Position numbers and translations under genes: made by a program
Shown here: positions 20,140 through 37,743 of the stretch, piece after piece
Layout: each line of letters opens with the position of its first letter
Position numbering within the stretch: the first letter of the stretch is position 1
Assembly: GCA_035559815.1 (NCBI GenBank)
Contig: DATMAT010000031.1
Coordinates: 1 to 41,881, forward strand
Source: Thermodesulfobacteriota bacterium
GTDB taxonomy: Bacteria; Desulfobacterota_D; UBA1144; Nemesobacterales; CSP1-2
Reading direction: 5' to 3'
Length of the DNA: 41,881 nucleotides
Notes under the pieces: generated by a model
What the model saw: only the letters and a program-made list of their open reading frames with translations
Database searches by the model: none
Told to the model about the DNA's origin: nothing

Positions 20140-20167
20140 AGAAGGTATTAGAATCAAGGTTGTATAA

Positions 20168-20386
20168 TCAAAAGCCCGATTCTACTTCTTCAAACTCAAT
20201 CTCCCTCTTCAGGTTTCTTAGGACCTCCCTAGTTTCCTCCACCAGGTCATCGGTGGGAATAATTTTAATTATCCCGAGCTCTACATTCTCGGTCCTAACC
20301 CATGCCAGGTGTGAATAGGTTCCGAGGATTGACTGAAGGTAAACTGTGTCGCTAGGGTCAAGAAGCTTTATGTATATGGTAGCCAT
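20168..20386 (-). CDS. DUF4911-like protein
   Basis: A 72-residue protein starting MATIYIKLLDPSDTVYLQSI with a beta-alpha-beta pattern and a central SHLAWVRTENVELGIIKII, resembling the short DUF4911 family (LxxxDP..I.FLK.ILEGYDGLA.VRT). No function is known for that family. The frame is open to a GTG at 20422, but homology begins at the ATG at 20386 and neither start has an ideal ribosome binding site. The gene lies between the convergent MBL gene and the divergent dcw promoter region. Confidence 0.65.
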   Translation of the reverse strand: MATIYIKLLDPSDTVYLQSILGTYSHLAWVRTENVELGIIKIIPTDDLVEETREVLRNLKREIEFEEVESGF

Positions 20387-20723
20387 GCTATAGAATAACT
20401 CCCGGCGATAATCAGTCAACACTTTAATTACTAAGGTCTTATAGATGGTTACATTATATACTTAAAGCGAACTGTGTTCATTTCAGGGCAATTTTAGTGA
20501 CACCATATTTTTTGAATTTCATACCCATAGCCCGGATATCCAAAATTCTATGAGATAATAAAAGGTGCAAAAAGACAGAGTGATTGGGGTGTGATGATTA
20601 ATGACCAGTCGAAAATCGGGAGGGGAAGCTACGCTTTATTTGTTTTTATTTGGTTACAATCCTGTGAATACGCTTGTCTTAGCCCCCTCCCATATAAAAA
20701 ATTAAAAAATTTCACAAAGTTAC

Positions 20724-20752
20724 TTGACAAAGTTTACACGTTTTTATATAGT
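20724..20752 (+). promoter_or_regulatory. Consensus sigma-70-type promoter of the dcw cluster
   Basis: TTGACA at 20724-20729, a 17-bp spacer, and TATAGT at 20747-20752 (5/6 match to TATAAT). The predicted transcription start is near 20759-20760, about 40 bp before the mraZ ATG. The first MraZ-like box begins at 20751, inside the -10 element. Confidence 0.85.
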
Positions 20753-20780
20753 GGTTTAAAGTGGCATAAAGTGGCATAAT
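20751..20780 (+). promoter_or_regulatory. Triple 10-bp MraZ operator boxes
   Basis: Three head-to-tail copies: GTGGTTTAAA (20751-20760), GTGGCATAAA (20761-20770), GTGGCATAAT (20771-20780). Boxes of the AAAGTGG/TGGGN type repeated every 10 bp in front of mraZ are known MraZ binding sites in E. coli and mycoplasmas. Here they cover the -10 region and the predicted start site, so binding should block RNA polymerase. Confidence 0.85.
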
Positions 20781-20800
20781 AAGGCGTCTGAGAGCATGTA

Positions 20801-21247
20801 ATGTTCCGCGGCAGATATGAACACACCATGACCGATAAAGGGCGAATTAGCGTGCCTTCAAAGTTTAGAGAGGTCCTGAAAGAAAAGTACGATGATGAAA
20901 CCCTGGTGATAACCAACTTTGACAAGTGCTTAGCCGCCTATCCGGTAAAGGAATGGAATGAGATAGAAAAAAAAGCGGCAGAACTACCCCAGTTCAGACA
21001 AGAGGTGATTTCTTTCCTTAGATATTTGATGGGTTCGGCCATCGATTGCCAGATAGATGGGTCTGGTAGGGTGCTTATACCTCAAGCTCTAAGAAACCAC
21101 GCCCAGATTAAACGAGATGTTGTTATGATCGGCATGCTCAGCCGGTTTGAGATATGGTCGAGAGAGCTTTGGGAAGAAGAGGAATCCAAGAAGGCTTACG
21201 AGGAGTTCAAGAGGAGTAGGGAAATCTTGGCGGGTCAGCGATTATGA
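20801..21247 (+). CDS. mraZ: Transcriptional regulator MraZ
   Basis: A 148-residue protein with two SpoVT-AbrB-like DNA-binding domains. The first starts MFRGRYEHTMTDKGRISVPSK and the second contains DCQIDGSGRVLIPQALR (about 83-99). MraZ oligomerises into rings and binds direct repeats in its own promoter, controlling the dcw operon; three such boxes lie 20-50 bp upstream. The stop overlaps the rsmH start by 4 bp. The ATG at 20801 has only a weak Shine-Dalgarno. Confidence 0.97.
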   Translation: MFRGRYEHTMTDKGRISVPSKFREVLKEKYDDETLVITNFDKCLAAYPVKEWNEIEKKAAELPQFRQEVISFLRYLMGSAIDCQIDGSGRVLIPQALRNHAQIKRDVVMIGMLSRFEIWSRELWEEEESKKAYEEFKRSREILAGQRL

Positions 21248-22209
21248 ACATTGAGAAGGCGGTGTTGGAGATAAAAAATCCGGTACACAAGCCGGTGATG
21301 GTGAAGGAAGCGGTAGAGTTCTTGCGTCCTTATCCTGGTGGTATATACGTAGATGCCACTCTGGGGCTGGGAGGGCATACCGAGGCGATTCTAAAATACT
21401 CCGAGTATAGGGCCAAGATCATAGGATTCGATATCGACGATGAATCACTTTCCCTATCCAAAAAAAGACTATCCGGCTCTGCCGGTCAAGTCGTGTTTGT
21501 GAACAGGAACTACTCGGAGATCCAAGAGGTGCTCGAGTCGATGGGGGTGGATGAGCTGGACGGAATAGTGGCTGACCTGGGGATGTCTTCATTCCATATA
21601 GAGGCAAGCGGTAGAGGATTCAGCTTTCTCAAGGACGAGCCGCTCGACATGAGAATGGATGCCAGATTGAGATTCACCGCTAGCGACTTAGTCAATGAAA
21701 TGGATGAGGAGGAGATTTCCAGGATTCTTAGCACATACGGCGAAGAGAAATGGTCTAAAAGAATAGCCCGGGAGATACTTAGATTCCGCCGAGGGGCGGC
21801 TATAAAAACGTCTGCTCAGCTTGCGGATATAGTTTCCGGTGCCATCCCGAAACAGTTTCATCCCCAAAACATTCACCCGGCAACCAAGACCTTTCAAGCG
21901 TTTCGTATAGCAGTCAACAATGAACTGGAAAACCTGGAACGCTTCTTACAAGAGGCCGTTCCCTTGGTTAAGGTCGGCGGAAGAATAGTCATAATCTCTT
22001 TTCATTCCCTGGAAGACAGGCTGGTAAAAAACACGTTCAAGAAGCTATCGTCGCCTTGCATTTGCCCCCCCGGTCTGCCCAGATGCGGATGCGGAAGAAA
22101 AAGTATCCTCAAGATAATTACCCGTTCCCCGGTCATGGCCGGGGTAGAAGAATTACTGGATAACCCGAGGGCAAGGAGCGCAAAATTAAGAGTAGGAGAG
22201 AGGATATAA
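21244..22209 (+). CDS. rsmH: 16S rRNA (cytosine(1402)-N4)-methyltransferase RsmH
   Basis: A 321-residue SAM-dependent methyltransferase (MraW) that N4-methylates C1402 in the 16S rRNA P site. The opening NPVHKPVMVKEAVEFL (12-27), the SAM loop VDATLGLGGHTEAIL (36-50), the insertion domain, and the C-terminal HPATKTFQAFRIAVNNEL and SFHSLEDR motifs are all present. The CICPPGLPRCGCG cysteine cluster near the end is typical. It begins with ATGA overlapping the mraZ stop. Confidence 0.97.
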   Translation: MNIEKAVLEIKNPVHKPVMVKEAVEFLRPYPGGIYVDATLGLGGHTEAILKYSEYRAKIIGFDIDDESLSLSKKRLSGSAGQVVFVNRNYSEIQEVLESMGVDELDGIVADLGMSSFHIEASGRGFSFLKDEPLDMRMDARLRFTASDLVNEMDEEEISRILSTYGEEKWSKRIAREILRFRRGAAIKTSAQLADIVSGAIPKQFHPQNIHPATKTFQAFRIAVNNELENLERFLQEAVPLVKVGGRIVIISFHSLEDRLVKNTFKKLSSPCICPPGLPRCGCGRKSILKIITRSPVMAGVEELLDNPRARSAKLRVGERI

Positions 22210-22212
22210 GCC

Positions 22213-22551
22213 ATGGCCCTGGCCAGGACTATTAGAGTAAGAGGGAATTCAACTTTAGAGAGGGTGGTATTTTCCACGAGGTTTCTGGTGGCGATTATAT
22301 TGGTCATGGTTCTGGCTATTGCCTACATAACCATCAAGGTCGAGGCGACAAGAATGGGTTATGAGATTTCAGCCAGTAAGAGGGAAGAAGAAAAATTACT
22401 CAAAGAAAACCTTCTTCTCACCGCCGAGCTAATGAGGCTGAAATCGCCTCAAAGGGTCGAGGGTCTGGCGCATGAGCTCGGTTTTAAGTTTCCCACTCCG
22501 GAAGACCTTATATATATAGAAGAGAATACCTTAATCGGGGAGAGCAAATGA
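22213..22551 (+). CDS. ftsL: Cell division protein FtsL
   Basis: A 112-residue bitopic protein: short cytoplasmic N-terminus, one transmembrane helix (about 24-41, LVAIILVMVLAIAYITIK), and a periplasmic coiled coil (about 45-80, EISASKREEEKLLKENLLL) ending in an AHELGFKFPTPEDLIYIE segment. FtsL sequences diverge widely; the call rests on this architecture and its place between rsmH and ftsI. It should act with a FtsB-like partner, FtsQ, FtsW and FtsI in the divisome. It overlaps ftsI by 4 bp. Confidence 0.88.
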   Translation: MALARTIRVRGNSTLERVVFSTRFLVAIILVMVLAIAYITIKVEATRMGYEISASKREEEKLLKENLLLTAELMRLKSPQRVEGLAHELGFKFPTPEDLIYIEENTLIGESK

Positions 22552-24464
22552 CAGGAAGGAAAAGCTCCAAAAAGAGGATATCGTTGGCCAGGGACTTGAC
22601 GAAACCAATGTGGAAAATCTCGATTGTCGGCGGGATGCTGCTCATACTTTTTACTGCAGTATCGGTCAGGGCTTTAAAGCTCCAGGTGCTCAGCACGGAT
22701 AAGGCCTTTGAACTGGCCAGAAAGCAACACACCGGCCTTTTCACCCTCCTTCCCCGTCGAGGGAGGATACTGGACATAAATAAGAAGGAACTGGCCATAA
22801 ACGTAGATGCGGTATCCAGTTATGTGCATCCGGGGAATGTGAAAGACCCGAAGCAGTTTTCTCTAGTGCTTTCAAAGTTGGTAAAGCGCCCCCAAAAAGA
22901 AGTACTCAATATGCTGCTTTCCCAAAAACCGTTTGTTTGGATAACCAGGCTGGGCGAGCCGGAGCTGATTTCTAAGCTAAAAAGCGCTAATTTAGACGGT
23001 ATAGGTTTTGTAGATGAGCCCAAAAGGGTTTATCCGAACGGCCACCTGGCCGGGCAGGTCCTAGGTTTTACCAATATCGACTCAAAGGGGATAGAGGGAA
23101 TCGAGTATGAATTCGAGAGTTTACTCGCCGGCAGCCCGGGCAGAATTACCGTGAAGAGGGATGCCCGAGGAAGGCATATAATCAGCACTCCCACCGATGT
23201 CGAAGCCAGCGTTTCCGGCTACGACATCATCCTCCACCTGGACTCACAAATTCAATACATAGTGGAGAAGGAGCTTAAGGAAGGCATAAAAAAGGCATCG
23301 GCAGAAAAAGGGATGGCTCTTCTCATGGACCCGGAGACCGGTGCGATACTGGCAATGGCTTCATATCCTTTTTTCGACCCAAACGAATTCAATAAGTACA
23401 GCGGGGACTCCAGGAGGAACCTGCCGATTTGGTACTCGTTCGAGCCGGGTTCGACCATCAAGATGTTTTTGGCCGCTGCCGCCCTGGAGGACAAGAAGGT
23501 CAATCTGTCGTCAAAGTTTGATTGCGAGAATGGCAAGAGAAAGGTGGGACCTTACTTTATAAACGATGTTCACCCCTACGGGGTGTTGAATGTGGCCCAA
23601 ATCGTGGAGTTGTCTAGCAATGTATGCGCCTCTAAGATAGCCGAGACCCTGGGCAAGGACCGGTTCCATGCCTATCTTAGGTCTTTCGGGTTTGGGGAAA
23701 AGACAGAAATCGACCTGCCCGGAGAATCAACCGGAAGACTGGCCAGCCCCAAGAAATGGGGGCCGGTTGAACTGGCCACGCTCTCCTTTGGTCAGGGGAT
23801 CTCGGTTACCGCTATCCAACTGGCGTCGGCACTGTCGGCCATCGCCAACGGAGGCTACCTTTTGAAACCGCGTGTGGTCAAAGAAATAGTGAGTCCGGAC
23901 GGCAAGGTGGTAAAGGGAAATGAGCCAGAAGTGGTCGGCCGGGTTATATCATACGATACTGCCGAGACCATCAAGGGAATTTTGGAAGGGGTTGTGGAGA
24001 ATGGCACGGGTAAACAGGCTTCGATTCCCGGCTATCGGGTAGCCGGAAAGACCGGTACGGCCCAGATTCCCAACCCGGAAACCGGAGGGTATTATTCTAA
24101 CCGCTACCTGTCTTCTTTCATCGGTTTTGCCCCGGTTGATGACCCTAAGATAACACTGGTCATAGTGGTGGAGAACCCTAAAACCAGCAACTACGGCGGG
24201 GTTGTAGCCGCTCCGATATTCAGGGCAATTACGGAGAAGGTTCTTTTCTACAAGGGGATTCCTCCTCAAAAAGGCTTCGTAGAAGCAAAGATAATGCCCG
24301 ATCTTCGCGGTAAGAGCGCAAGGGATATTCTCAGATGGGCGGAAAAAGAGGGGCTCAAGGTTAAGTTAACCGGAAGCGGATATGTCAAGGACCAAAAACC
24401 GCGGGCCGGAGAAAGGATAAAGGCGGACACGGTTTGCTCCGTAGAGTTAAGGCAGACGATATAA
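22548..24464 (+). CDS. ftsI: Division transpeptidase FtsI (PBP2/3-type) with PASTA domain
   Basis: A 638-residue class B penicillin-binding protein: cytoplasmic basic N-terminus, transmembrane helix (about 23-43), pedestal domain, and transpeptidase domain with S302TIK305 (nucleophile Ser302), SSN (356-358) and KTG (501-503). A single PASTA domain follows at about 583-638 (MPDLRGKSARDILRWAEKEG). E. coli FtsI (588 aa) lacks PASTA; its presence is common in Gram-positives and deltaproteobacterial-type lineages. It crosslinks septal peptidoglycan with FtsW. A 70-bp gap precedes murE. Confidence 0.96.
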   Translation: MTGRKSSKKRISLARDLTKPMWKISIVGGMLLILFTAVSVRALKLQVLSTDKAFELARKQHTGLFTLLPRRGRILDINKKELAINVDAVSSYVHPGNVKDPKQFSLVLSKLVKRPQKEVLNMLLSQKPFVWITRLGEPELISKLKSANLDGIGFVDEPKRVYPNGHLAGQVLGFTNIDSKGIEGIEYEFESLLAGSPGRITVKRDARGRHIISTPTDVEASVSGYDIILHLDSQIQYIVEKELKEGIKKASAEKGMALLMDPETGAILAMASYPFFDPNEFNKYSGDSRRNLPIWYSFEPGSTIKMFLAAAALEDKKVNLSSKFDCENGKRKVGPYFINDVHPYGVLNVAQIVELSSNVCASKIAETLGKDRFHAYLRSFGFGEKTEIDLPGESTGRLASPKKWGPVELATLSFGQGISVTAIQLASALSAIANGGYLLKPRVVKEIVSPDGKVVKGNEPEVVGRVISYDTAETIKGILEGVVENGTGKQASIPGYRVAGKTGTAQIPNPETGGYYSNRYLSSFIGFAPVDDPKITLVIVVENPKTSNYGGVVAAPIFRAITEKVLFYKGIPPQKGFVEAKIMPDLRGKSARDILRWAEKEGLKVKLTGSGYVKDQKPRAGERIKADTVCSVELRQTI

Positions 24465-24534
24465 TAAGCTGGTATATAATTTGATCCCTCGGGCCATAGG
24501 ATAAACCTGTTTTCATGCACGGCTGAGCAGTTAG

Positions 24535-26040
24535 ATGATTTTGAGAGACCTGGTCAAAGGAGCAGAGATAAAGGAGATTCTGGGCGGTGATAATCTGGAA
24601 ATTTCCGGTATAACTTACAACTCTGAAGAGGTCCGCGACCGGTTTCTCTTCGTCGCTATAAGAGGGGAGAAGGCAGACGGGCATACCTACATAGGCTCGG
24701 CTGTAAAAAACGGGGCAGGGGCGATACTGTTGGAGAAGGTTCCAGAGAATAGCTTTGGTAGCGTCTCGATAGTTCGAGTGCCGGATACGAAGTCTGCACT
24801 TGCCACTATCTCTGCAAACTACTACCGCCATCCCACAAAGGGGCTTACTCTAGTGGGCGTAACCGGAACTAATGGAAAAACAACTGTAAGTTATCTCTTG
24901 GAATCAATTTGGGAGGCGGAAGGAAAAAGCTCAGGGGTGGTGGGAACGATTGAATACCGCTACATGGGAAAGAAAACCCCAGCGCCCATGACTACTCCTG
25001 AATCCCTGGACCTGATGAAGTTGTTGAAGGATATGAAAGACTCCGGGACGGAGTATGTGGTGATGGAGGTTTCTTCCCATGCCCTGGATAGAAAAAGGGT
25101 GTCAGCCTGCCACTTTGATGCGGCTATATTCACGAACCTTACTCAGGATCATCTCGATTATCATGTAAACATGGAAAATTATTTTGAGGCAAAAAAAAGA
25201 TTGTTCACGGAGGTTCTAGAGGCAAGCGAGAAGAGGAAGAAGTTTGCTATAATAAATCTCGACGATGCATATGGAGCGAGAATAGCCAAGTGCTCGGCCG
25301 GAGAAGTAATATCCTTCTCCACTAAATCTAGCTCTGCGGCTGTTCATGCGGAGAGGGCGACTATCAATGAGCAGGGGATTTGGGCCGATGTAAATACACC
25401 CTGGGGAAGAATTGAGCTTCATTCAAAACTCTTTGGTATTCATAACCTCTCTAATATGCTGGCGGCGTCCGCCACTGCGCTTTCTCTGGGAGCATCGCCT
25501 TCATCCGTGGAAAGTGGGGTTTCGAGAATAATCTCGGTCCCGGGAAGGCTGGATAGGGTGGAGAATACAAAGGGAATAAACGTGCTCGTAGACTATGCCC
25601 ACACCCCGGATGCACTCAAGAATGTGTTATCGGCGGTCAGGCCGCTTACGCCCGGTAGCCTCATACTGGTCTTCGGCTGCGGTGGAGATAGAGACCCGCT
25701 AAAAAGACCGGTGATGGGAAGAATAGGAAGGGAGCTTTCCGATGTGCTCATTGTAACCTCGGACAACCCGCGCACCGAGTCTCCTGACAGCATTATAGAC
25801 CAGATAGAAAGAGGGGTTTTTGAAGCGGTCGACGCTCGAAAAAGCTATTTCCGGGTCACGGACAGGCGTCAGGCCATAGAGAAGGCCATTAGAATTGCCC
25901 AGAGGGGTGACACGGTGCTCATAGCGGGAAAAGGGCATGAGGATTATCAGATTTTGGGGACAAAAAAAATCCACTTCGATGATAAGGAAGTGGCGAGGGG
26001 AATACTATCGGAGATAGATAAGGAAGAATGCTTAAACTAA
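24535..26040 (+). CDS. murE: UDP-MurNAc-tripeptide synthetase MurE (meso-DAP type)
   Basis: A 501-residue Mur ligase. The ATP site is GVTGTNGKTT (108-117), the carbamylated-lysine region lies near AKKRLFTEV, and YAHTPDALKNVL (354-365) is conserved. The DNPR motif at 410-413 (TSDNPRTESP) marks enzymes that add meso-diaminopimelate rather than lysine, so the peptidoglycan is probably of the DAP type. It adds the third residue to UDP-MurNAc-L-Ala-D-Glu. Its 3' end overlaps murF by 13 bp. Confidence 0.97.
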   Translation: MILRDLVKGAEIKEILGGDNLEISGITYNSEEVRDRFLFVAIRGEKADGHTYIGSAVKNGAGAILLEKVPENSFGSVSIVRVPDTKSALATISANYYRHPTKGLTLVGVTGTNGKTTVSYLLESIWEAEGKSSGVVGTIEYRYMGKKTPAPMTTPESLDLMKLLKDMKDSGTEYVVMEVSSHALDRKRVSACHFDAAIFTNLTQDHLDYHVNMENYFEAKKRLFTEVLEASEKRKKFAIINLDDAYGARIAKCSAGEVISFSTKSSSAAVHAERATINEQGIWADVNTPWGRIELHSKLFGIHNLSNMLAASATALSLGASPSSVESGVSRIISVPGRLDRVENTKGINVLVDYAHTPDALKNVLSAVRPLTPGSLILVFGCGGDRDPLKRPVMGRIGRELSDVLIVTSDNPRTESPDSIIDQIERGVFEAVDARKSYFRVTDRRQAIEKAIRIAQRGDTVLIAGKGHEDYQILGTKKIHFDDKEVARGILSEIDKEECLN

Positions 26041-27425
26041 ACTGGGTCTTGAGTTCTATAAATGGAGAACTTGTAGATAGGCAAAATTCTCCATCTCTAC
26101 CCAAATTGGAGAATTTATCCTTTTCCGGGGTCTCCACCGATTCCAGAAGGATAAGAAAGGACGAACTCTTCTTTGCTCTTAGCGGGGATAACTTTGATGG
26201 TCACGACTTTGTCTCCGAGGCTTTAGATAAAGGGGCAAAAGGCGCGGTGGTGGAAAGGATAGTTGGGGGTATAAAGACAAATGGGAAAGTGCTCATAAAA
26301 GTTCCCTCTACACTCAGGGCTTTCGGAGACCTCGCCTCGGCGTGGAGAAGGAGCTTCGTTGACCTAAAGCTGGCCGCTATCACCGGCTCTAACGGTAAGA
26401 CAACCACCAAGGAGATGGCCTGGAGCATCCTCTCGGTCAAATTCTGTGTGCTCAAGAACACGGACAATTTGAACAACCTGGTCGGCCTTCCCATGACCCT
26501 ACTGAGAATTGCCGAGAGCCACGAGGCCGCCGTGGTAGAACTCGGAATGAATGAGTTTGGCGAGATACAAAGACTGGCGGAGATTGCACTCCCGGACACC
26601 GGGGCGATCACCAACATTGGCCGAGCCCATTTGGAGAAGCTAGGGGGAATAGAGGGCGTGGCCAAAGCAAAAGGAGAACTGGTAGAGGCATTCACCGAGC
26701 ACAACACATTTGTAGTGAATATGGACGACCCCTGGGTTCGAAAAATTGCCGAAGGTGCCAGGTGTAAGAAGATTACATTCGGAGTAAATTCCCCGGGAGT
26801 GGACATCTCCGCCAAAAACATTAGCCCGGTTGATTTTTCGGCAATCAGGTTCAATATGATCGTCGGTGAGAGTGACTTCCCGGTGAGAATAAGGGGAATA
26901 GGGCTCCATAACGTGATGAATGCGCTCTGCGCCGCGGGAGTGGGTTTGTCTTTAGGGTGTAGCCCTGATGAAATTCAGGCCGGACTGGAAAGATTCACCC
27001 CGGCCTACATGAGGCTTGAGGTTATGGATACCCCGTTTGGTTTCAAGATCATAAACGACGCCTACAATGCCAACCCCGACTCGATGAGGAGAGGAATAGA
27101 GGAACTGGCCAGGCTCAGGGGAAAAGGCAGGGCAATAGCAGTGCTCGGAGACATGCTGGAACTCGGGGAAATGAGCGAGAACGAGCACGTGGCCTTGGGA
27201 CAGTTTCTTGCGGAAAAGGAGCTGGACTTCGTTATCACCCGGGGTAGATATGGAACGGATATTCTTCGTGGAGTTGATGGTAAAATCGAAGGAACATTTG
27301 TGGAAAGTCATGAGGAGGCGGCAGAGGTGCTTATAAGGATGGCTAAGCCCGGCGACTTGGTGTTGATAAAGGGCTCGCGAGGGATGAGGATGGAAGACAT
27401 AATTAGGAGGCTTTTTGAGAGGTAG
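26028..27425 (+). CDS. murF: UDP-MurNAc-tripeptide:D-Ala-D-Ala ligase MurF
   Basis: A 465-residue Mur ligase with the N-terminal UDP-binding domain (FSGVSTDSRRIRKDELFFAL, 32-51), P-loop TGSNGKTTT (119-127) and a C-terminal domain containing INDAYNANPDSM. It adds D-Ala-D-Ala to complete the pentapeptide. No ddl gene is present in this window to supply the dipeptide. The start lies inside the end of murE (13-bp overlap), implying coupled translation. Confidence 0.97.
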   Translation: MLKLNWVLSSINGELVDRQNSPSLPKLENLSFSGVSTDSRRIRKDELFFALSGDNFDGHDFVSEALDKGAKGAVVERIVGGIKTNGKVLIKVPSTLRAFGDLASAWRRSFVDLKLAAITGSNGKTTTKEMAWSILSVKFCVLKNTDNLNNLVGLPMTLLRIAESHEAAVVELGMNEFGEIQRLAEIALPDTGAITNIGRAHLEKLGGIEGVAKAKGELVEAFTEHNTFVVNMDDPWVRKIAEGARCKKITFGVNSPGVDISAKNISPVDFSAIRFNMIVGESDFPVRIRGIGLHNVMNALCAAGVGLSLGCSPDEIQAGLERFTPAYMRLEVMDTPFGFKIINDAYNANPDSMRRGIEELARLRGKGRAIAVLGDMLELGEMSENEHVALGQFLAEKELDFVITRGRYGTDILRGVDGKIEGTFVESHEEAAEVLIRMAKPGDLVLIKGSRGMRMEDIIRRLFER

Positions 27426-27433
27426 CTCACGAT

Positions 27434-28543
27434 ATGCTTTATTTTCTCTACTTGCTGAAAGGGGATTTTATATTATTCAACGTTTTCAAATACATTACGT
27501 TTCGCTCTTTTGGAGCGGGTGTAACCGCTTTTTTGATAAGCATCGTCCTGGGAAAGGCATTCATAGATTTTTTGAGTAAAAAGCAGTTCAAGGAGAACAT
27601 CCGTTCAGACGGTCCTCCTGGTCATCAATCTAAAGCCGGCACTCCAACTATGGGAGGGGTGTTTATAGTTATAGCCATAGCCGCCTCGACACTTCTTTGG
27701 GCCAACCTGACCAGTGAAGTGGTATGGTTCGTGCTGGCTTTCACCGTCGGCTATGGAGCGATTGGTTTTACCGATGACTGGTTAAAGCTATCGCGCGGGA
27801 GAGGGATGCGGGCAAAGGTCAAGTTCTTCTTGCAGATTGTCCTGGCGGTCATCTTTGTCTTGTTATTGATAATGGAGAAGAAGGGATTCACCATGTCGCT
27901 CCGGGTTGACCAGATTGCCTATTACCCGTTTACTTCGGTGGTTTTTCCTTTTTTCAAAAAAGGGGTTTTAATGCTCGGGTGGTTCTACATACCGTTTGCA
28001 ATTTTGGTCCTGGTAGGTGCATCGAACGCGGTGAACCTTACCGATGGTCTCGATGGTCTGGCTATCGGCGCGATATCCGTTACCGCAGCAACCTACATAG
28101 TTTTCGCTTATCTTTCCGGACACGTAGAATTTTCGAGATACCTGCAAATTCCCTATATCTCAGAAGGGGGAGAGCTGGCGGTCTTTCTAGCGGCGGTAGG
28201 GGGTGCCTGTCTCGGATTTCTCTGGTACAACTCCCATCCCGCTCAGGTATTCATGGGTGATGTTGGCTCGCTGGCATTGGGGGCGGCTATCGGCTCAGTT
28301 GCGCTCATAATTAAGCAGGAAATCCTACTGATCTTGGTGGGTGGTCTTTTCGTTATGGAGACCGTTTCGGTAATTATTCAGGTGCTTTCCTTCAAGCTGA
28401 CTGGCAAGAGGGTTTTCCGCATGGCTCCGTTGCATCATCATTTTGAGTTGAACGGCTGGCCTGAATCGAAGGTGGTCATAAGGTTCTGGATAATTTCTCT
28501 GGTGCTTTCTCTGGTGGCGCTTTCTACCCTGAAGCTCAGATAG
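27434..28543 (+). CDS. mraY: Phospho-MurNAc-pentapeptide transferase MraY
   Basis: A 369-residue integral membrane enzyme with about ten transmembrane helices, making lipid I from UDP-MurNAc-pentapeptide and undecaprenyl phosphate. Signature elements: KAGTPTMGG (67-75), the acidic pair D114-D115 in GFTDDWLKL, NLTDGLDGLA (201-210), and the late MAPLHHHFELNGWPE motif. The N-terminus MLYFLYLLKGDF is typical, supporting the ATG at 27434, 8 bp after murF. Confidence 0.97.
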   Translation: MLYFLYLLKGDFILFNVFKYITFRSFGAGVTAFLISIVLGKAFIDFLSKKQFKENIRSDGPPGHQSKAGTPTMGGVFIVIAIAASTLLWANLTSEVVWFVLAFTVGYGAIGFTDDWLKLSRGRGMRAKVKFFLQIVLAVIFVLLLIMEKKGFTMSLRVDQIAYYPFTSVVFPFFKKGVLMLGWFYIPFAILVLVGASNAVNLTDGLDGLAIGAISVTAATYIVFAYLSGHVEFSRYLQIPYISEGGELAVFLAAVGGACLGFLWYNSHPAQVFMGDVGSLALGAAIGSVALIIKQEILLILVGGLFVMETVSVIIQVLSFKLTGKRVFRMAPLHHHFELNGWPESKVVIRFWIISLVLSLVALSTLKLR

Positions 28544-28558
28544 ACTTTGCTGGTGTTT

Positions 28559-28578
28559 AGGCCTCCTGATGGGGGCCT
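28559..28578 (+). terminator. Short GC-rich hairpin between mraY and murD
   Basis: AGGCCTCC (28559-28566) pairs with GGGGGCCT (28571-28578) over 8 bp with one G-T pair and a TGAT loop, followed by TAAAATC rather than a T-run. It lies in the 174-bp mraY-murD gap, the longest in the cluster, and could act as an attenuator or RNA-processing site. Weak as a terminator. Confidence 0.35.
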
Positions 28579-28717
28579 TAAAATCTTGACTAAGAGGATA
28601 AGGGGAAAACCAAATCCATATAAGTGGGAGCATCTAACCCCGAAGGCGGGAGATGGAGGATATTTATCTAGTCAGGGAGTCGAGTTGAATAAAATATTAC
28701 GGAGCTCAAAGACGTAG

Positions 28718-30049
28718 ATGGAATTAGATGGAAGAAAAGTAGTGGTTGTTGGTCTGGGCAAAACTGGTATTGAAACCGTCAGATTCTTGCTCAAAAAAGG
28801 CGGAGAGATAAGGGCAAGCGACATTAACCATCTGCAAAAGCTCTCCCAGGATGTAAAGGCGTTCATGGAATCTGGGGTAAGAATAGAATCCGGCGGACAC
28901 CAAGAGGAAACCTTTTTGTGGGCTGACACCATAGTGCTCAGCCCGGGCGTACCATTTAATATTCCACCGGTTAAGAAAGCCTTGGCCAAGGGCATAGAGG
29001 TTATGAGCGAATTGGAGCTTGCCTCCAGGTTTATCAAGAAACCGATAATTGGAATAACCGGCTCTAACGGAAAGACCACCACTTCGACCCTCGTGGCCCG
29101 GATTCTAGGAGCATCCGGGAAAAGGGTATTTCTTGGCGGAAATATCGGCACCCCTTTAATTCAAATTGCCGGGGAGGATGAAGGATTTGACCTTCTGGTG
29201 CTCGAACTAAGCAGCTTCCAGCTTCAAGGCGTGTCCACGTTTAGACCACACATAGGAATACTCCTTAATATATCTCCTAATCATCTCGATCATCATGAGA
29301 GTTTTGAAGAGTATGTGAACGCCAAGCTCATGCTCTTTTCTAACCAGGGCCCGGATGACTGGGCAATATATAATCTTGATGACCCGGTGGTAGAGACCAG
29401 CTCTTTAAATAAATTAAAGTCCAGAAAGATTCCTTTTGCAAAAACACCTGCCGAGGGCGGGGTATTTTTTGACGGCAACTGTGTCCGGTTCATGGGTGAA
29501 ATCTACGACATAAAAGGCATGAAACTTCCGGGGATTCATAACGTCGAGAATGCCATGGCTGCCATAGCATCGACCCGGGTCTTAGGGTGCAAGCCGGGGT
29601 TGATAGAGCGGGAGATATTGGAATTTGTTCCCCTTCCTCATAGGATTGAATTCGTCCGTGAGGTTAAGGGGGCAAGGTTTTACAACGATTCGAAATCAAC
29701 CAGCCCTGGAGCCACACTCAAGGCACTGGAAAGTTTTTCTTACCCCATAATTCTCATAGCCGGTGGAAAGGATAAGGGGGTTAGCTATGGGATTCTCCGG
29801 GATGAAATCAAGAGAAAGGTAAAGCTACTCATACTTTTTGGTGAGTCCCGGTCGAGAATGAAAAGAGAACTGGGAGAAGTGGTTAACACTGTCCTGGCCA
29901 GTTCACTTGATGAGGCAGTAGAATTGGCGGTTAAGAACATGGGTGAAGGGGATACCGTTCTTTTTTCACCCGGTTGTTCCAGCTTCGATATGTTTAGCTC
30001 CTACGAAGAAAGAGGAGGGAGATTCAAGCAGATTGTCCAAGATATTTAA
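28718..30049 (+). CDS. murD: UDP-MurNAc-L-alanine:D-glutamate ligase MurD
   Basis: A 443-residue Mur ligase: N-terminal Rossmann motif GLGKTG (12-17), ATP site GSNGKTTT (115-122), then SSFQL and LNISPNHLDHH of the central domain, and NDSKSTSP in the C-terminal part. It adds D-glutamate to UDP-MurNAc-L-Ala in the cytoplasm. A 174-bp spacer separates it from mraY. Its last 17 bp overlap the proposed ftsW start. Confidence 0.97.
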   Translation: MELDGRKVVVVGLGKTGIETVRFLLKKGGEIRASDINHLQKLSQDVKAFMESGVRIESGGHQEETFLWADTIVLSPGVPFNIPPVKKALAKGIEVMSELELASRFIKKPIIGITGSNGKTTTSTLVARILGASGKRVFLGGNIGTPLIQIAGEDEGFDLLVLELSSFQLQGVSTFRPHIGILLNISPNHLDHHESFEEYVNAKLMLFSNQGPDDWAIYNLDDPVVETSSLNKLKSRKIPFAKTPAEGGVFFDGNCVRFMGEIYDIKGMKLPGIHNVENAMAAIASTRVLGCKPGLIEREILEFVPLPHRIEFVREVKGARFYNDSKSTSPGATLKALESFSYPIILIAGGKDKGVSYGILRDEIKRKVKLLILFGESRSRMKRELGEVVNTVLASSLDEAVELAVKNMGEGDTVLFSPGCSSFDMFSSYEERGGRFKQIVQDI

Positions 30050-31145
30050 TTTTGAAGGAAAAGGTTACGACGTAGGAATAATCGTGTCGGTGGTGTTCCT
30101 CTCGGCGATGGGTATGTTGATGGTGTATAGCACCAGTTCAATATACGCGCTCGAACAATATGGAGACCCCAGCTATTTCCTGAAACGCCACGCCATATAT
30201 CTTCTCGTCGGCATGTTCGGCATGTTTATTTTGATGAGCCTAGACTATCAAATCTTGAGGAGGTTCGTCTATCCTGCTTACATATTTGGCCTCATTATTC
30301 TGGTATTGGTGCTCATCCCGGGAATAGGCGAGGAGGTTGGTGGAGCAAGGAGATGGATAGACCTAGGCCCGGGTAGTTTTCAGCCCTCAGAGATAGCCAA
30401 ATTTCTCCTAGTTCTATATCTAGCCCATTCTATCACTAAAAAAAAGGATAAGATGGACAGCTTTTCCGTGGGTTTTATATCGCACCTTCTGATAGCCGGG
30501 GCATATATATTGCTAATCCTTCTTGAACCAGACTTTGGCATGGTGGTAATACTCTTTACCATGCTCTTTGGCATGCTTTTTATCGGAGAAGTTAGGGTTG
30601 GTTACCTGATAGCTTCGGGGGTGATTTCCGTCATCCTCATGGTCTTGGCGGTGATGGACCAAAGCTACAGAATGAAGCGTATAATATCTTTCCTTAATCC
30701 CTGGGAGGATCCCCTGGGTTCCGGATACCAGGCGGTTCAGTCTTTCGTAGCCTTTGGCCTGGGTGGTATAGTAGGTACGGGACTGGGGGACAGCACCCAG
30801 AAGTTGTTTTTTCTTCCCCAGGCACATACCGATTTTATTTTTTCCATAATCGGCGAGGAGCTGGGTTTTATCGGTGTGCTCTCGATCATTGTCGCTTTTG
30901 GATTTCTGGTGGTCAGGAGTCTCCGGGTAGCACTGAAGGCACCGGACCTTTTCGGTTGCTACCTGGTATTTGGTTGTATAATGCTGGTCGCTCTTCAGGC
31001 CGGCATCAATATGGCTGTGGCCGTCGGACTTTTTCCGATCAAGGGACTCACTCTTCCTTTCATAAGCTACGGAGGGACATCGCTGGTGAGCAGTTTGGGG
31101 GCGATGGGAATAATACTGAGCGTATCAAGAAAGGGATTAAAATGA
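30033..31145 (+). CDS. ftsW: Division glycosyltransferase FtsW (SEDS family)
   Basis: A roughly 370-residue SEDS polymerase with about ten transmembrane helices. Typical motifs: MLMVYSTSS in the first helix, FLKRHAIYL, RRWIDLGPGSFQPSE, FIFSIIGEELGF, and LPFISYGGTSLVSSL near the C-terminus. It polymerises septal glycan with FtsI. The frame is open to 29943 inside murD, but homology begins near LSKIFNFEGKGYDVG, so a TTG at 30033 is proposed; AGGAGGG at 30013-30019 lies 13 nt upstream, rather far. The stop overlaps the murG start (ATGA). Confidence 0.93.
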   Translation: MSKIFNFEGKGYDVGIIVSVVFLSAMGMLMVYSTSSIYALEQYGDPSYFLKRHAIYLLVGMFGMFILMSLDYQILRRFVYPAYIFGLIILVLVLIPGIGEEVGGARRWIDLGPGSFQPSEIAKFLLVLYLAHSITKKKDKMDSFSVGFISHLLIAGAYILLILLEPDFGMVVILFTMLFGMLFIGEVRVGYLIASGVISVILMVLAVMDQSYRMKRIISFLNPWEDPLGSGYQAVQSFVAFGLGGIVGTGLGDSTQKLFFLPQAHTDFIFSIIGEELGFIGVLSIIVAFGFLVVRSLRVALKAPDLFGCYLVFGCIMLVALQAGINMAVAVGLFPIKGLTLPFISYGGTSLVSSLGAMGIILSVSRKGLK

Positions 31146-32227
31146 AAGTGATAATCGCTGGAGGAGGAAGCGGGGGGCATGTATTTCCAGCGTTCTCCAT
31201 CGCCGAAGAGATTCGGAGAAGAAATCCAGGACACGCGGTTCTTTTCGTAGGAACAAAACAGGGGTTAGAAAAAAAAACCCATTTGCCCCCGGGTTGTGAG
31301 CTGGAGTATATAAGCTCGAGTGGAATAATGGGCAAAGGGGTATCTAAGGGCTTGAAAGCAGCCGTCCTGGCTTTTAAAGGCCTCTTCGAATCTATATCCA
31401 TAATTAAAAAATTCGGCCCGGATGTAGTATTGGGTGTGGGGGGTTATGTATCCGGTCCGGTAGTTTTCGCCGCATTACTTCTCTCCGTACCCACTGCTAT
31501 TTGTGAGCAGAACTCAGTACCCGGAGTTACAAATCGTATTCTAGGACGGTTCGCAAAAAAGATATTTGCTTCGTTTGAGGAAAGTGTTAAATTCTTTCCC
31601 AGAAAGAAAACTATGGTCGTTGGAAACCCGGTGAGAAGTGAGATATTGCACGGCGGCAAACTAAACACAGCGGGGAAGGGCCTGATTAACATTCTTGTTT
31701 TTGGTGGTAGCCAGGGGGCGCGTAGGCTCAATCTTTCGGTGCCTAAGGCATTTGCAATCTTAGGTCGACGTGATGTTGCGATAATTCATCAGACCGGACA
31801 AAACGATATGGAGGACGTAAAAAAAACATACGAGTGGTATGGCATCCAAGCGGAGGTAATACCTTTTATCGAGGATATGGCCAAGGCATATGGGCGAGCT
31901 GATTTGGTGATTGGAAGGGCTGGCGCGGGCACCATCGCCGAGGTTACAGCGCTGGGAAAACCTTCGATCCTTGTGCCTTATCCCTTTTCGGCGTACAATC
32001 ATCAGATGGAGAATGCGATGATCATGAAGAACGCCGGAGCAGCAGTGGTTGTCGAAGACGAAGATGCAGTGCCGGAAAAATTGGCTCATGTTCTGAATAA
32101 CCTGCTGAAAGGCGATATACTTAAAGAGATGGGAATCAAAGCGAGGGAACTGGGCAAGCCGGAAGCGGCAAAAAAAATCGTCGACGAGGTTTATAAACTG
32201 GCCGGAGTAAATATTAATCAAGAATGA
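31142..32227 (+). CDS. murG: Lipid II synthase MurG
   Basis: A 361-residue GT28-family transferase that adds GlcNAc to lipid I on the inner face of the membrane. The N-terminal glycine loop IIAGGGSGGHVFPA, the GGYVSGP segment, the EQNSVPGVTNR motif, and the C-terminal GRAGAGTIAEVTALGKPSIL with PYP are present. The frame extends upstream into ftsW, but the ATG at 31142 overlapping the ftsW TGA matches the family start exactly. Confidence 0.97.
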   Translation: MKVIIAGGGSGGHVFPAFSIAEEIRRRNPGHAVLFVGTKQGLEKKTHLPPGCELEYISSSGIMGKGVSKGLKAAVLAFKGLFESISIIKKFGPDVVLGVGGYVSGPVVFAALLLSVPTAICEQNSVPGVTNRILGRFAKKIFASFEESVKFFPRKKTMVVGNPVRSEILHGGKLNTAGKGLINILVFGGSQGARRLNLSVPKAFAILGRRDVAIIHQTGQNDMEDVKKTYEWYGIQAEVIPFIEDMAKAYGRADLVIGRAGAGTIAEVTALGKPSILVPYPFSAYNHQMENAMIMKNAGAAVVVEDEDAVPEKLAHVLNNLLKGDILKEMGIKARELGKPEAAKKIVDEVYKLAGVNINQE

Positions 32228-32230
32228 TAC

Positions 32231-32340
32231 TAGAAATTTCAAATCTCAAATCACCAATATCAAACAACATTCAATCCCTGAATTCCGAATGTTCGGTATT
32301 TGGAGTTTTATCTGTTTGCAATTTGATATTTGATCATTGG
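32231..32340. repeat. Inverted AT-rich repeat between murG and murC
   Basis: GAAATTTCAAATCTCAAATCACCAATATC (about 32236-32264) is mirrored by GCAATTTGATATTTGATCATTGGAGC (about 32318-32343). Repeats of the AAATTTCAAATC / GATATTTGATCATTGGAG type occur as intergenic elements in environmental genomes. Its right end supplies the GGAG (32339-32342) that may serve as the murC Shine-Dalgarno. Confidence 0.5.
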
Positions 32341-32353
32341 AGCTTGTTCTAGA

Positions 32354-33721
32354 ATGTACGGACGAATTAAGGAAATACATTTCATCGGCATAGGCGGAAT
32401 AGGGATGAGCGGTATAGCCGAGGTTCTCCTGAACATGGGCTACAGTGTGACTGGCTCCGACCTTAAAAGAACGGAGATAATAGAGAGGTTGGAACGGCTC
32501 GGGGCATCGATATATATAGGCCATGCTCCGGAAAATATAAAGGCCCCCGATGTCGTGGTAACTTCTTCTGCTATAAACAAGAATAACCCGGAGGTTCTTC
32601 AGGCCAAATCGAAAAAGATACCGATAATTCCCAGGGCGGAGATGCTCGCCGAGCTGATGAGGCTAAAATATGGCATAGCCGTTGCCGGGAGCCATGGGAA
32701 GACTACCACCACGTCCATGATCTCCACCGTCCTGGATTATGGGGGCTTTGACCCGACTATCGTGGTCGGGGGTAAAGTGAAAACGCTGGGCAGTAACGCT
32801 CATCTTGGAAATGGAAATTTTATGGTGGTAGAGGCTGACGAGAGTGACGGCTCTTTTCTGATGCTTTCACCGGTGATAGCGGTGGTCACAAATATTGATA
32901 GAGAACATCTCGATTATTACGAGAATATAATCCATCTCCAGGATGCGTTCTCTGATTTTCTGAATAAGATACCGTTCTACGGGCTGGCCGTTCTCTCTGC
33001 AGACTGTCCCCGGGTTAAATCGATCATCCCCAATTTCAGGAAGAGGCTGGTTACATACGGGTTTTCGCCACAAGCGGATTTCCGGGCCGAAGAAGTTATA
33101 GTCAATGGATTTGAAACCACTTTCCGGGTTTCGTACCGGGATTCATTCTTAGGCCAAGTTAAGCTCCACGTTCCCGGTAGGCACAATGCGGAGAATGCGC
33201 TTGCCTCTTTTGCCGTGGGGATGGAGCTGGGTATGAGCTTCGAGCGCATAAGGGATGGACTGGCCGAGTTTAGAGGGATAGATAGGAGGCTTCAGGTAAA
33301 AGGAGAGCAGAAAGGTGTATTAATCATAGACGACTACGGGCATCATCCGGAAGAGATAAGGGTAACTTTAAGAGCGCTCAGAGAATCTTTCTCCAGGAGA
33401 CTGGTGGTAGTTTTCCAGCCTCATAGATATACCAGAACTCATCTTCTATTCGATGATTTCGTGAAGGTTCTCAAGGAGACCGATGTGCTTTTAATTCTGG
33501 ATATATATGCGGCAGGCGAAGCACCAATAGCCGATGTAAGTTCGGAGAAGCTGGCCGAAGCTATAAAAAAGGCCGGACATAACGGCGTGTTCTACGTGGG
33601 CAAAATGGATGAGGCCGTCGACCATGCTTTGAGAATATTAAGACCGGGGGATATTGTTCTGACCCTCGGTGCAGGAAATGTATGGACTTTGGGGGAGAAG
33701 ATGATGAAGGAGATTTCATGA
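32354..33721 (+). CDS. murC: UDP-MurNAc:L-alanine ligase MurC
   Basis: A 455-residue Mur ligase that adds the first amino acid. It shows IGIGGIGMSGIAEVL (11-25), P-loop GSHGKTTTT (112-120) with the His typical of MurC, EADESDGSF, and DDYGHHPEEI in the C-terminal domain. The start is the ATG at 32354 (MYGRIKEIHFIG), with GGAG at 32339-32342; the frame is open a few codons further upstream into a repeat. The stop overlaps the murB start by 4 bp. Confidence 0.97.
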   Translation: MYGRIKEIHFIGIGGIGMSGIAEVLLNMGYSVTGSDLKRTEIIERLERLGASIYIGHAPENIKAPDVVVTSSAINKNNPEVLQAKSKKIPIIPRAEMLAELMRLKYGIAVAGSHGKTTTTSMISTVLDYGGFDPTIVVGGKVKTLGSNAHLGNGNFMVVEADESDGSFLMLSPVIAVVTNIDREHLDYYENIIHLQDAFSDFLNKIPFYGLAVLSADCPRVKSIIPNFRKRLVTYGFSPQADFRAEEVIVNGFETTFRVSYRDSFLGQVKLHVPGRHNAENALASFAVGMELGMSFERIRDGLAEFRGIDRRLQVKGEQKGVLIIDDYGHHPEEIRVTLRALRESFSRRLVVVFQPHRYTRTHLLFDDFVKVLKETDVLLILDIYAAGEAPIADVSSEKLAEAIKKAGHNGVFYVGKMDEAVDHALRILRPGDIVLTLGAGNVWTLGEKMMKEIS

Positions 33722-34611
33722 CCGGGATTGCCGAGGAGTTGAGTAGAATCGGATGTGAATGCGTGTCTGGGTTTTCCATGAGCCGTTATACCTCCATGCG
33801 GGTAGGAGGCAACGTGGAATTGATAGTTTATCCCAAGAGCGCAGAAGTCCTGATTAAAGTTCTTAAGATGCTTTCTCTCCTAGGTATAAAGTCTACTGTT
33901 CTTGGGGCCGGGTCTAATACGATCATAGACGATGAGGGAATAGAGGGGGTAGTGGTCAGTACGAAAAACATGCGCGGTATTCAAATTCTGGAGAACGGAA
34001 AGGTTCTGGCCGAGGCCGGGGCGGTGCTCGGAACTATATTAAACAAAACCATCCGGGTGGGACTTAGCGGGTTTGAGTTTGTGGCCGGTATTCCCGGCAC
34101 GGTGGGCGGCGGCATCTTCATGAATGCTGGTGCGAACGACGGCGAGATAAAGGATGTAGTAGAAAAGGTCTGGGTCTGGGTAGATGGCAAAGAGATGGTC
34201 CTTTTCAGGGACGAGATAGAATTCGAGTATAGAAAGTGCCATATTCCCGAAGGGAGCGTCGTGACCAGGGCGCTTTTCGGACTAAAGCCTGGCCGAAGCG
34301 ATGAAAGCGAGAAAAGGGTCAAAGAATACCTGGATAAGAGAAGTAAAACACAGCCTATAACCATGTCTAATTCCGGGTCTATATTCAAAAACCCTCCGGA
34401 GATTCCCGCCGGTAAGCTTTTAGAAGAGCTGGGGTTCAAAGGATTCTCCATCGGCGGAGCAAGATTTTCCGAGCTTCACGCAAACTTCATCGTCAACTGG
34501 AGAAACGCCAAGGCATCCGACGTCATAAGGCTGATAGAATTGGCAAAGAAAGAGGCTTTATCCAGAAGGGGTATAGACTTGGAGACAGAGGTCAAAATTA
34601 TCAGGAAATAG
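33718..34611 (+). CDS. murB: UDP-N-acetylenolpyruvoylglucosamine reductase MurB
   Basis: A 297-residue FAD-dependent reductase forming UDP-MurNAc. FAD-binding motifs are YTSMRVGG (24-31), LGAGSN (62-67) and GIPGTVGGGIFMNAG (125-139). Catalytic residues expected for the family are R172 (FEYRKC), S221 (SNSGSIFKNP) and E291 (LETEVKI). The short form without the E. coli-type insertion indicates type II MurB. The start is the ATG overlapping the murC TGA. No ddl follows; ftsQ begins 6 bp later. Confidence 0.96.
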   Translation: MTGIAEELSRIGCECVSGFSMSRYTSMRVGGNVELIVYPKSAEVLIKVLKMLSLLGIKSTVLGAGSNTIIDDEGIEGVVVSTKNMRGIQILENGKVLAEAGAVLGTILNKTIRVGLSGFEFVAGIPGTVGGGIFMNAGANDGEIKDVVEKVWVWVDGKEMVLFRDEIEFEYRKCHIPEGSVVTRALFGLKPGRSDESEKRVKEYLDKRSKTQPITMSNSGSIFKNPPEIPAGKLLEELGFKGFSIGGARFSELHANFIVNWRNAKASDVIRLIELAKKEALSRRGIDLETEVKIIRK

Positions 34612-34616
34612 AAAAG

Positions 34617-35321
34617 TTGAGACGAGCGCGATTTTATCTTTCCACTCTCTTTTTACTCATATCTGTCTTGGTAATTACCTATTTATCCGCTTCTTATTTT
34701 TCCTTCTTTACTATAAAGGAAATCCAGATAACCGGAGCTAAACGAGTTTCCCGAAAAGAGATCATGAAGAGGTCCGGGTTAATAGCTGGGAAAACCAATA
34801 TTCTCTTTCTCGACAGCAAAGTGATTAAGGAGATCGCCAATAATAATTGGATAACCAGCGTTCGAATAAGAAGGGAGTTGCCCCAAAAAGTGATAATCGA
34901 AGTGGAAGAAGCTGAACCATTTTGTATATTCGTGGCCGAAGATAGCTCTCTTTACTATATGACTGAATCAGGAAAAAAATTGGGCACGGCAAATTTTGAT
35001 CAGGGACTTGATTTTCCCGTTCTTATAGGTGATGGTATATGGAAACCTGACCTGTTGGGTGACGCTTTGACTATCCTCAAACTTTCCCAGAAGAGCAGCG
35101 CCCTTAATTGGGTAGAAATCTCGGAAGTAAATCTAGACTCAATTTATGGAATTACCATATTCACTAACGACGGCCGACGTGTAGATTTTGGAATGAACAA
35201 CATCGAACGCAAGTGGTCGAAGGTGGAAAAAATAATCAAGCATGTACGTAGCATGAACTTAGCTGAGGAATACATAAACATAACTTCGGAAAAAAATGGG
35301 ATAGTTAGTTTCAAGATCTGA
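34617..35321 (+). CDS. ftsQ: Cell division protein FtsQ
   Basis: A 234-residue bitopic divisome protein: basic N-terminus, one transmembrane helix (about 7-29), a POTRA domain (about 32-100: FTIKEIQITGAKRVSRKEIM with ELPQKVIIEVEEAEPFCI), and a beta domain to the end. It links early and late divisome proteins and recruits the FtsL/FtsB partners. The start is a TTG at 34617, 5 nt after the murB stop. It is slightly shorter than E. coli FtsQ (276 aa). Confidence 0.92.
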   Translation: MRRARFYLSTLFLLISVLVITYLSASYFSFFTIKEIQITGAKRVSRKEIMKRSGLIAGKTNILFLDSKVIKEIANNNWITSVRIRRELPQKVIIEVEEAEPFCIFVAEDSSLYYMTESGKKLGTANFDQGLDFPVLIGDGIWKPDLLGDALTILKLSQKSSALNWVEISEVNLDSIYGITIFTNDGRRVDFGMNNIERKWSKVEKIIKHVRSMNLAEEYINITSEKNGIVSFKI

Positions 35322-35348
35322 TAAGTTGATTCTTAGGAGTTTGGTTGG

Positions 35349-36578
35349 ATGGGTAGAGAACCTAACCTGATTATCGGACTGGATATAGGCACTACCAAGG
35401 TGTGTGCGATAGTGGCAGAGGCCAACTCGCCGGACGAGGTGGATGTTATCGGTATAGGCACGCATCCCTCCTATGGTCTTAAAAGGGGGGTGGTTGTTAA
35501 CATCGAGAATACTGTACAATCCATAAAACAGGCGGTGGAAGAGGCTGAGCACATGGCCGGCTGTGAGATAAGAACGGTTTTTGTGGGTATTGCCGGAGGG
35601 CACATAAAAGGGATAAGCGGCCATGGCATGATCACACTCAGAAACCGAGAAGTGGCCAGGCGTGATGTTGACCGTGTTATCGAATCGGCAAACGCCCTCT
35701 TAATACCAGCGGATAGGGAAATCATTCACGTCATTCCCCAGGAATTCATAGTGGATGGCCAGGGTGGAATCAAGGACCCGGTGGGGATATACGGGATAAA
35801 GTTGGAGACTAAGGTACATATAGTTACCGGGCAGGTTACTGCAGCGCAGAACCTGGTGAAGTGTATACACCGTGCCGGAATGGATGTAGCCGATATCGTC
35901 TTGGAACAGTTGGCGTCGAGCGAGGCTGTACTTACTCCGGATGAGAAGGAAATAGGAGTGGTTCTAATTGACTGCGGAGGCGGGACGACGGACATAGCCA
36001 TATTTTCCGGGGGCAGTATAAGGTATACAGAAAATTTAACACTAGGAGGTGATCACATAGACAGGGATATCTCTCTCGGGTTTTCCACCCCTTTGGCCGA
36101 AGCAAGAAAGCTCAAGGAGAAATACGGCGTGGCCCTGGCCGAGCATGTCTATACAGACGAAAAAATCGAGGTGACCAGTGTTGGTGGAAGACGCCCGAGA
36201 AATATCAGCCGAAAGGACCTGGCGCTTATAATTGAACCAAGAATGGAGGAAATCTTTAGTCTGGTACGGAGGGAAATAACCAACTCCGGGTATAGGGACC
36301 TGGTCCCGGCGGGCGCGGTGATTACCGGTGGCACTGTGATAATGGACGGCACGGTAGAGCTTGCGGAAAAGATACTGGGCATACCGGTAAGAAGGGGAGT
36401 TCCCAACGGGATAGGTGGCTTGAGCGATATCATAGCCAACCCGGTTTATTCCACCGGAGTGGGACTCGTTCTTTACGGAGCAAGATATAAGGGAGACAAA
36501 AAGATCAGGATCAGAGATGAAAACGTTTTTAAAAAAGTATTCGACAGCATGAAGAACTGGTTTCGAGAGTTTTTTTGA
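35349..36578 (+). CDS. ftsA: Cell division protein FtsA
   Basis: A 409-residue actin-like ATPase that tethers FtsZ to the membrane. Phosphate loop 1 GLDIGTTKVCAIV (9-21), SHS2/1C region, DCGGGTTDIAIFSGG phosphate 2, and ITGGTVIMDG near the adenosine site are visible. The C-terminal end MKNWFREFF is an amphipathic membrane-targeting helix. AGGAG at 35335-35339 lies 9 nt before the ATG. A 45-bp gap follows to ftsZ. Confidence 0.97.
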   Translation: MGREPNLIIGLDIGTTKVCAIVAEANSPDEVDVIGIGTHPSYGLKRGVVVNIENTVQSIKQAVEEAEHMAGCEIRTVFVGIAGGHIKGISGHGMITLRNREVARRDVDRVIESANALLIPADREIIHVIPQEFIVDGQGGIKDPVGIYGIKLETKVHIVTGQVTAAQNLVKCIHRAGMDVADIVLEQLASSEAVLTPDEKEIGVVLIDCGGGTTDIAIFSGGSIRYTENLTLGGDHIDRDISLGFSTPLAEARKLKEKYGVALAEHVYTDEKIEVTSVGGRRPRNISRKDLALIIEPRMEEIFSLVRREITNSGYRDLVPAGAVITGGTVIMDGTVELAEKILGIPVRRGVPNGIGGLSDIIANPVYSTGVGLVLYGARYKGDKKIRIRDENVFKKVFDSMKNWFREFF

Positions 36579-36623
36579 GTTAAAATAGCAATCCTAATAA
36601 ACAAGGAGGAGGGGTTAACTGTT

Positions 36624-37710: not shown

Positions 37711-37743
37711 GAGTAGTGAGTGGAAGATCTCCGCTCACTACTC
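37711..37743 (+). terminator. Strong hairpin after ftsZ
   Basis: GAGTAGTGAGTGGA (37711-37724) pairs with TCCGCTCACTACTC (37730-37743): 14 bp with one G-T pair and a 5-nt AGATC loop. It begins 17 bp after the ftsZ stop and is followed by CCTCTTATA, without a full T-run. It probably ends or stabilises the dcw transcript. Confidence 0.6.

Follow-up and report, generated by a model that had tools for sequence, protein, structure and literature searches.

The mraZ promoter and the dcw cluster

The window, i.e. the whole stretch of 41,881 nucleotides analysed here, belongs to a Candidatus Dadabacteria MAG and contains a 15-gene dcw cluster headed by mraZ, with all genes on the + strand and mostly overlapping or closely spaced. 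The mraZ product was recognized by TIGR00242 (127 bits, cut-off 98) and PF02381 (111 bits, two domains), and phmmer matched it to solved MraZ structures (PDB 1n0e, 9qlr, 9qlg and 9sx6). No other gene of the genome carries an MraZ domain, both domain matches being those of mraZ itself. These matches, together with rsmH to ftsZ lying behind the gene, bear out the initial annotation of this reading frame as an MraZ gene heading dcw. Most of the closest named relatives are likewise Candidatus Dadabacteria MAGs, their MraZ proteins being 69-85% identical to that of the window. Ahead of mraZ lies a sigma-70 promoter whose -10 element is fused to an array of 10-bp boxes (the fused layout):

20691..20723, + strand: A/T-rich tract directly 5' of the -35, a candidate UP element by its presumed function
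20724-20729, + strand: -35 element TTGACA, read directly; invariant in the 24 relatives with the fused layout
20747-20752, + strand: -10 element TATAGT, after a 17-bp spacer; its final two bases are common to box 1
20751-20760, + strand: putative MraZ box 1, GTGGTTTAAA; AGTGG core at 20750-20754
20759, + strand: predicted transcription start, 7 nt 3' of the -10 (+/-1), placed by the spacing from the -10
20761-20770, + strand: putative MraZ box 2, GTGGCATAAA; AGTGG core at 20760-20764, invariant in 22 relatives
20771-20780, + strand: putative MraZ box 3, GTGGCATAAT; AGTGG core at 20770-20774, core plus C invariant in 22 relatives
20781-20784, + strand: weak, degenerate box-like AAGG at the fourth position, in step (10 bp) with the boxes
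20801..21247, + strand: mraZ (148 aa), encoding the transcriptional repressor of dcw, which presumably binds the boxes
21244..37694, + strand: rsmH, ftsL, ftsI-type PBP, murE, murF, mraY, murD, ftsW, murG, murC, murB, ftsQ, ftsA and ftsZ
37711..37743, + strand: 14-pair hairpin just 3' of ftsZ, from a pattern scan; T run weak

The promoter TTGACA-17-TATAGT carries 11 of the 12 consensus bases and is the top + strand match in 17.5 kb, and the near-consensus promoter of the initial annotation was thus exact to the base. A second, weaker promoter-like match in the same scan is TTTACA-18-TAAAGT. The GTGG units begin at 20751, 20761 and 20771, which is 50 to 30 bp 5' of the mraZ ATG (20801). Box 1 and the -10 overlap by two bases (G20751 and T20752), or by three when the AGTGG core that is invariant among relatives is counted. 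Boxes 2 and 3 cover the predicted start and the leader and both read AAAGTGG-CAT, while box 1 begins ATA, being fused to the -10, and also differs 3' of the core (GTGGTT vs GTGGCA), where it could partly be promoter or discriminator sequence. The unit is therefore better written as AGTGG-N5 or AAAGTGG-N3. The AAGG at the fourth position is possibly just a remnant of a ribosome-binding sequence; in many relatives this position reads ATGG or AGGG and there lies at the ribosome-binding position. A search of 19000-22000 against Rfam found no RNA element.

Within the dcw cluster, 16 internal promoter-like sites were found against 21.2 expected by chance, and a single transcript for the whole 17-kb cluster from the mraZ promoter is plausible. 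The hairpin behind ftsZ is a candidate for its 3' end.

Specificity and conservation of the box array

Short two-unit matches are common across the genome: GTGG-N6-GTGG has 43 occurrences in 3.97 Mb, and when the 660-bp upstream region was shuffled 20,000 times with its dinucleotides preserved, two GTGG units at 10-bp spacing appeared in 105 cases. This would favour a chance repeat within an A/T-rich leader. The full array GTGG-N6-GTGG-N6-GTGG, however, arose in none of the same 20,000 shuffles, and two consecutive overlapping pairs occur only at mraZ. Likewise, TATAGTGG-N6-GTGG-N6-GTGG with up to two mismatches has a single match in the genome, at mraZ. Across genomes, the zero-mismatch array was recovered once per genome in 22 genomes, each time at mraZ, and the control search with a 9-bp register gave no mraZ matches. 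Because the array is conserved, having been kept across 22 species, chance is excluded as an explanation, with a residual likelihood that is negligible. The claim of three 10-bp boxes running in register from inside the -10 is upheld by these counts.

Apart from the mraZ locus, a second tandem array of AAAGTGR at 10-bp steps was observed in one sister genus. It has six copies in one species (L076, around 2850-2915, - strand; G001:C20:34359-34414) and five in its sister species (L077, around 3035-3085; G002:C183:13535-13580), and lies between divergent uvrC and a frameshifted reading frame that by eye looks like a pyridoxamine-phosphate-oxidase type. With up to two mismatches allowed, this orphan array was not found in the other genomes. 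It may be a second MraZ target or a decoy.

The initial annotation had proposed a search for the box ahead of mraZ in relatives. In a first set of 19 named relatives, TTGACA-17-TATAGTGG fused to the box array was present in 17. The whole class comprised 58 genomes, 55 of them with mraZ and 54 with readable upstream regions, of which 24 carry TTGACA-17-TATAGTGG ahead of mraZ; G007, G057 and most f6 genomes, where the automatic promoter finder gave implausible results, were read by eye and not counted as having the fused layout. By family, the fused layout is found in all 7 genomes of f1 (the family of the window), in the single genome of f5 and in all 16 of f7. Where the spacing is exactly 10 bp, in 22 relatives, all three boxes keep an unchanged AGTGG, and TTATATAGTGGT at the -10 is likewise invariant across 22 relatives, whereas the preceding bases (TTTA, TTCA or TTGA) and the bases between the boxes vary. 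The A-tract AAAAAATT with CTTAC ahead of TTGACA is seen again in most relatives.

The main live rival to reading all three repeats as MraZ boxes is that only boxes 2 and 3 fill this role and that box 1 is the -10 plus discriminator (TATAGTGG), kept for promoter strength. There would then be no real overlap, and repression would, as in E. coli, target the initially transcribed region. The absence of CA after GTGG at box 1 in 22 of the 24 relatives is consistent with this, as is the start of the arrays of E. coli, Proteus, Aeromonas and deep Dadabacteria one turn later. Several observations nevertheless make it unlikely that box 1 serves the promoter alone. GTGG at this position is invariant (24/24), and 22 of the 24 have a step of exactly 10 bp to box 2. 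Family f3 retains TATAGT in place, followed by TATCAA instead of GG, which argues that GG is not needed for the promoter. In addition, G003 and G006 have five boxes with a first step of 11 bp, and their box 1 is GTGGCAT, the full consensus of boxes 2 and 3, which argues for box 1 as a real box.

Related GGCA-type arrays start 11-13 bp after the first base of the -10 in f2, f3, f6 and f8 (promoters of f2 and most f6 were read by eye), and, overall, nearly all Dadabacteria without the fused layout have related arrays at another offset before mraZ. In the MraZ tree, f3 and f6, both without the fused box, fall inside a group with f7, which has it; the layout thus changed more than once or was lost. 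Two genomes of one genus in f4 (G010 and G011; loci L092 and L090) have rsmH with mraZ absent, and no box array was found in the roughly 200 bp before rsmH. They may represent a natural loss of the MraZ circuit and, as one event in one lineage, weakly suggest that the boxes travel with mraZ.

Two further observations concern the array and its presumed reader. In many f7 relatives an in-phase fourth position (ATGG or AGGG) lies about 8-10 nt before the mraZ start, and the fourth box and the ribosome-binding sequence may have merged there; in the window, the mraZ start codon is one 10-bp unit further from this position than in the f7 relatives. The f8 genomes (e.g. L040, L041 and L043), a deep order with genomes of about 1 Mb, have a diverged box, GGCA-N6-GTCA-N6-GGCA, and a diverged MraZ (41-46% identity), which suggests that protein and site changed together.

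Predicted autorepression of the dcw promoter

Directly established are the match to a promoter, the presence and conservation of the boxes, their joint loss with mraZ, and the identities of the mraZ and dcw genes. The locus is best explained by MraZ autorepression of the dcw promoter through occlusion of RNA polymerase, to which a probability of roughly 0.88 is assigned on the basis of sequence comparison. Binding by MraZ, repression and steric exclusion are inferred, though very likely. The near-consensus sigma-70 promoter would drive mraZ and 14 cell-division and cell-wall genes, and neighbouring subunits of the MraZ ring would read the three AGTGG boxes, placed one helical turn apart. The boxes would span the end of the -10 and the start site (about 20759), reaching to about +21. 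As they run from the -10 end across the start, bound MraZ and RNA polymerase would exclude each other on the promoter, and by this mutual exclusion accumulating MraZ would shut down its own operon in a negative feedback loop. A literature search found no Dadabacteria in which binding, footprints or start sites had been recorded.

Among other organisms, MraZ represses dcw in M. genitalium (PMC8475190), but in M. gallisepticum overproduction of MraZ was linked to raised FtsZ and filamentation, as PMC8475190 relates from Fisunov 2016. Pure repression is thus not guaranteed in every species.

Two functions other than MraZ binding could be imagined for the repeats. They could act as -10-like hexamers (TATAGT, TAAAGT and CATAAT, one per 10 bp), retaining sigma-70 and inducing a promoter-proximal pause. 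At E. coli mraZ, a pause that depends on sigma-70 does occur at 14-15 nt, with pausing elements situated some 11 bp downstream of the -10 (PMC7876045); the TTTACA-18-TAAAGT match in the window would also fit. What is invariant in the relatives, however, is AGTGG, while the TAA part of the presumed hexamers is variable, and the pause in E. coli belongs to the proximal class, for which no downstream -10-like element is required. Pausing in place of MraZ binding is therefore very unlikely, although it could coexist with MraZ boxes. Alternatively, the GG runs could form a G-quadruplex controlling mraZ, as claimed for S. aureus, where a G4 motif has been reported at the mraZ promoter (PMC11796246). 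The array offers G runs no longer than doublets (GG), spaced by 8 bp; in G001 and G002 their number is three, not four. The f8 array moreover has GTCA in its middle, and an exact 10-bp period is not required for a G4, all of which makes a quadruplex more improbable still. Autorepression by MraZ through the three boxes thus remains the preferred interpretation.

Comparison with known MraZ promoters

The closest experimental counterpart is PmraBc of B. cenocepacia, a sigma-70 promoter with four 7-nt repeats, separated by 3-nt spacers, over the start; MraZ binds this dcw promoter by EMSA, promoter activity was measured, and dcw is transcribed from mraZ through ftsZ (PMC7761207). Although that study describes the boxes as downstream of the -10, the sequence of B. 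stagnalis has TTGACC-17-TAAAGT fused to GTGGG, with boxes at +4, +14, +24 and +34 (all such offsets here are counted from the start of the -10). 5'-RACE placed the B. cenocepacia start on a C that lies 100 bp before mraZ (PMC7761207). In B. stagnalis the base 100 bp before mraZ is likewise a C, at +12 and 7 nt after TAAAGT. Placed on the latter sequence, the mapped start has the same offset as the predicted start at 20759, and by this analogy a start near 20760, as initially proposed, appears probable. The two systems differ in that Burkholderia has four boxes and a 100-nt leader, and the window three boxes and a leader of about 42 nt.

In sequence, the unit AAAGTGG-N3 of the window corresponds to the Mollicute MraZ site, given as (AAAGTGKN3)3 in PMC5282649 from Fisunov 2016, and the 10-bp period is the same in both. 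Boxes 2 and 3 match this unit, while box 1, beginning ATA, does not. As far as the site quoted there allows, the MraZ-like identity first suggested for the boxes is thereby supported.

E. coli Pmra resembles the window in having a TTGACA promoter, three GTGGG boxes with a 10-bp period and mraZ as the first gene of dcw. Its boxes go back to Eraso 2014, as cited in PMC8475190 and PMC7761207, and its repression is cited in PMC8475190. It differs in its 18-bp spacer and TAAACT -10 (17 bp and TATAGT in the window), and in that its array starts at +13 rather than +4, so that no box touches the -10.

Arrays of GTG[G/T] at 10-bp steps were found at mraZ in E. coli and 12 other genomes, in a small and uneven sample of other phyla drawn from chromosomes filed as plasmids. 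Such entries in PLSDB, chromosomes or chromosome pieces with mraZ and dcw, include NZ_LR134401, NZ_CP030101, NZ_CP083716 and NZ_OL790811. A unit at +4 is present in Neisseria (TATAGTGT), Legionella (TATAGTGT), Nonomuraea (TATGGTGG) and Tsukamurella, and in the latter two, which are actinobacteria, the array also fills the spacer. In Proteus, Aeromonas and Bacillus the array starts at +11 or +12 and in Monoglobus at +13; in the mraZ leaders of Listeria and Paenibacillus no clear promoter was found. The overlap with the -10 had initially seemed tighter than usual, which does not hold, since the same +4 offset occurs in Beta- and Gammaproteobacteria and in Actinomycetota. The overlap of an MraZ box with the -10 thus recurs in several phyla, and the downstream layout of E. 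coli is not the rule.

These offsets fall into a group at +4 (Dadabacteria f1, f5 and f7, Burkholderia, Neisseria, Legionella and actinobacteria) and a group at about +11 to +13 (enterobacteria, Aeromonas, Bacillus, Monoglobus and other Dadabacteria). Perhaps the array is phase-locked to the -10 across phyla, with two start positions one helical turn apart, although the odds lean against this. A Rayleigh test on the offset modulo 10 gave R = 0.72 (p = 0.012) when restricted to the eight lineages outside Dadabacteria that have a good promoter, and R = 0.66 (p = 0.0007) over all 15 lineages, two of which lack a clear promoter, the input being a small sample of promoters picked by hand from the score, to which periods of 9-11 fit about equally. 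The two-offset pattern is thus a lead only. If true, it would mean that MraZ meets RNA polymerase on a fixed promoter face, beyond plain blocking of the site, and that gain or loss of the -10 box is an evolutionary dial for repression strength; two discrete array positions would also yield a cheap, testable prediction on the contact between MraZ and RNA polymerase.

Taken against these systems, MraZ control of dcw in Dadabacteria is an ordinary example of a known circuit and not a new one. The comparison extends MraZ/dcw autoregulation, with conservation at the level of single bases, to Candidatus Dadabacteria, whose representatives here are nearly all metagenome bins. Only two points are new: that the array may be phase-locked to the -10, and that one sister genus has an orphan array near uvrC.
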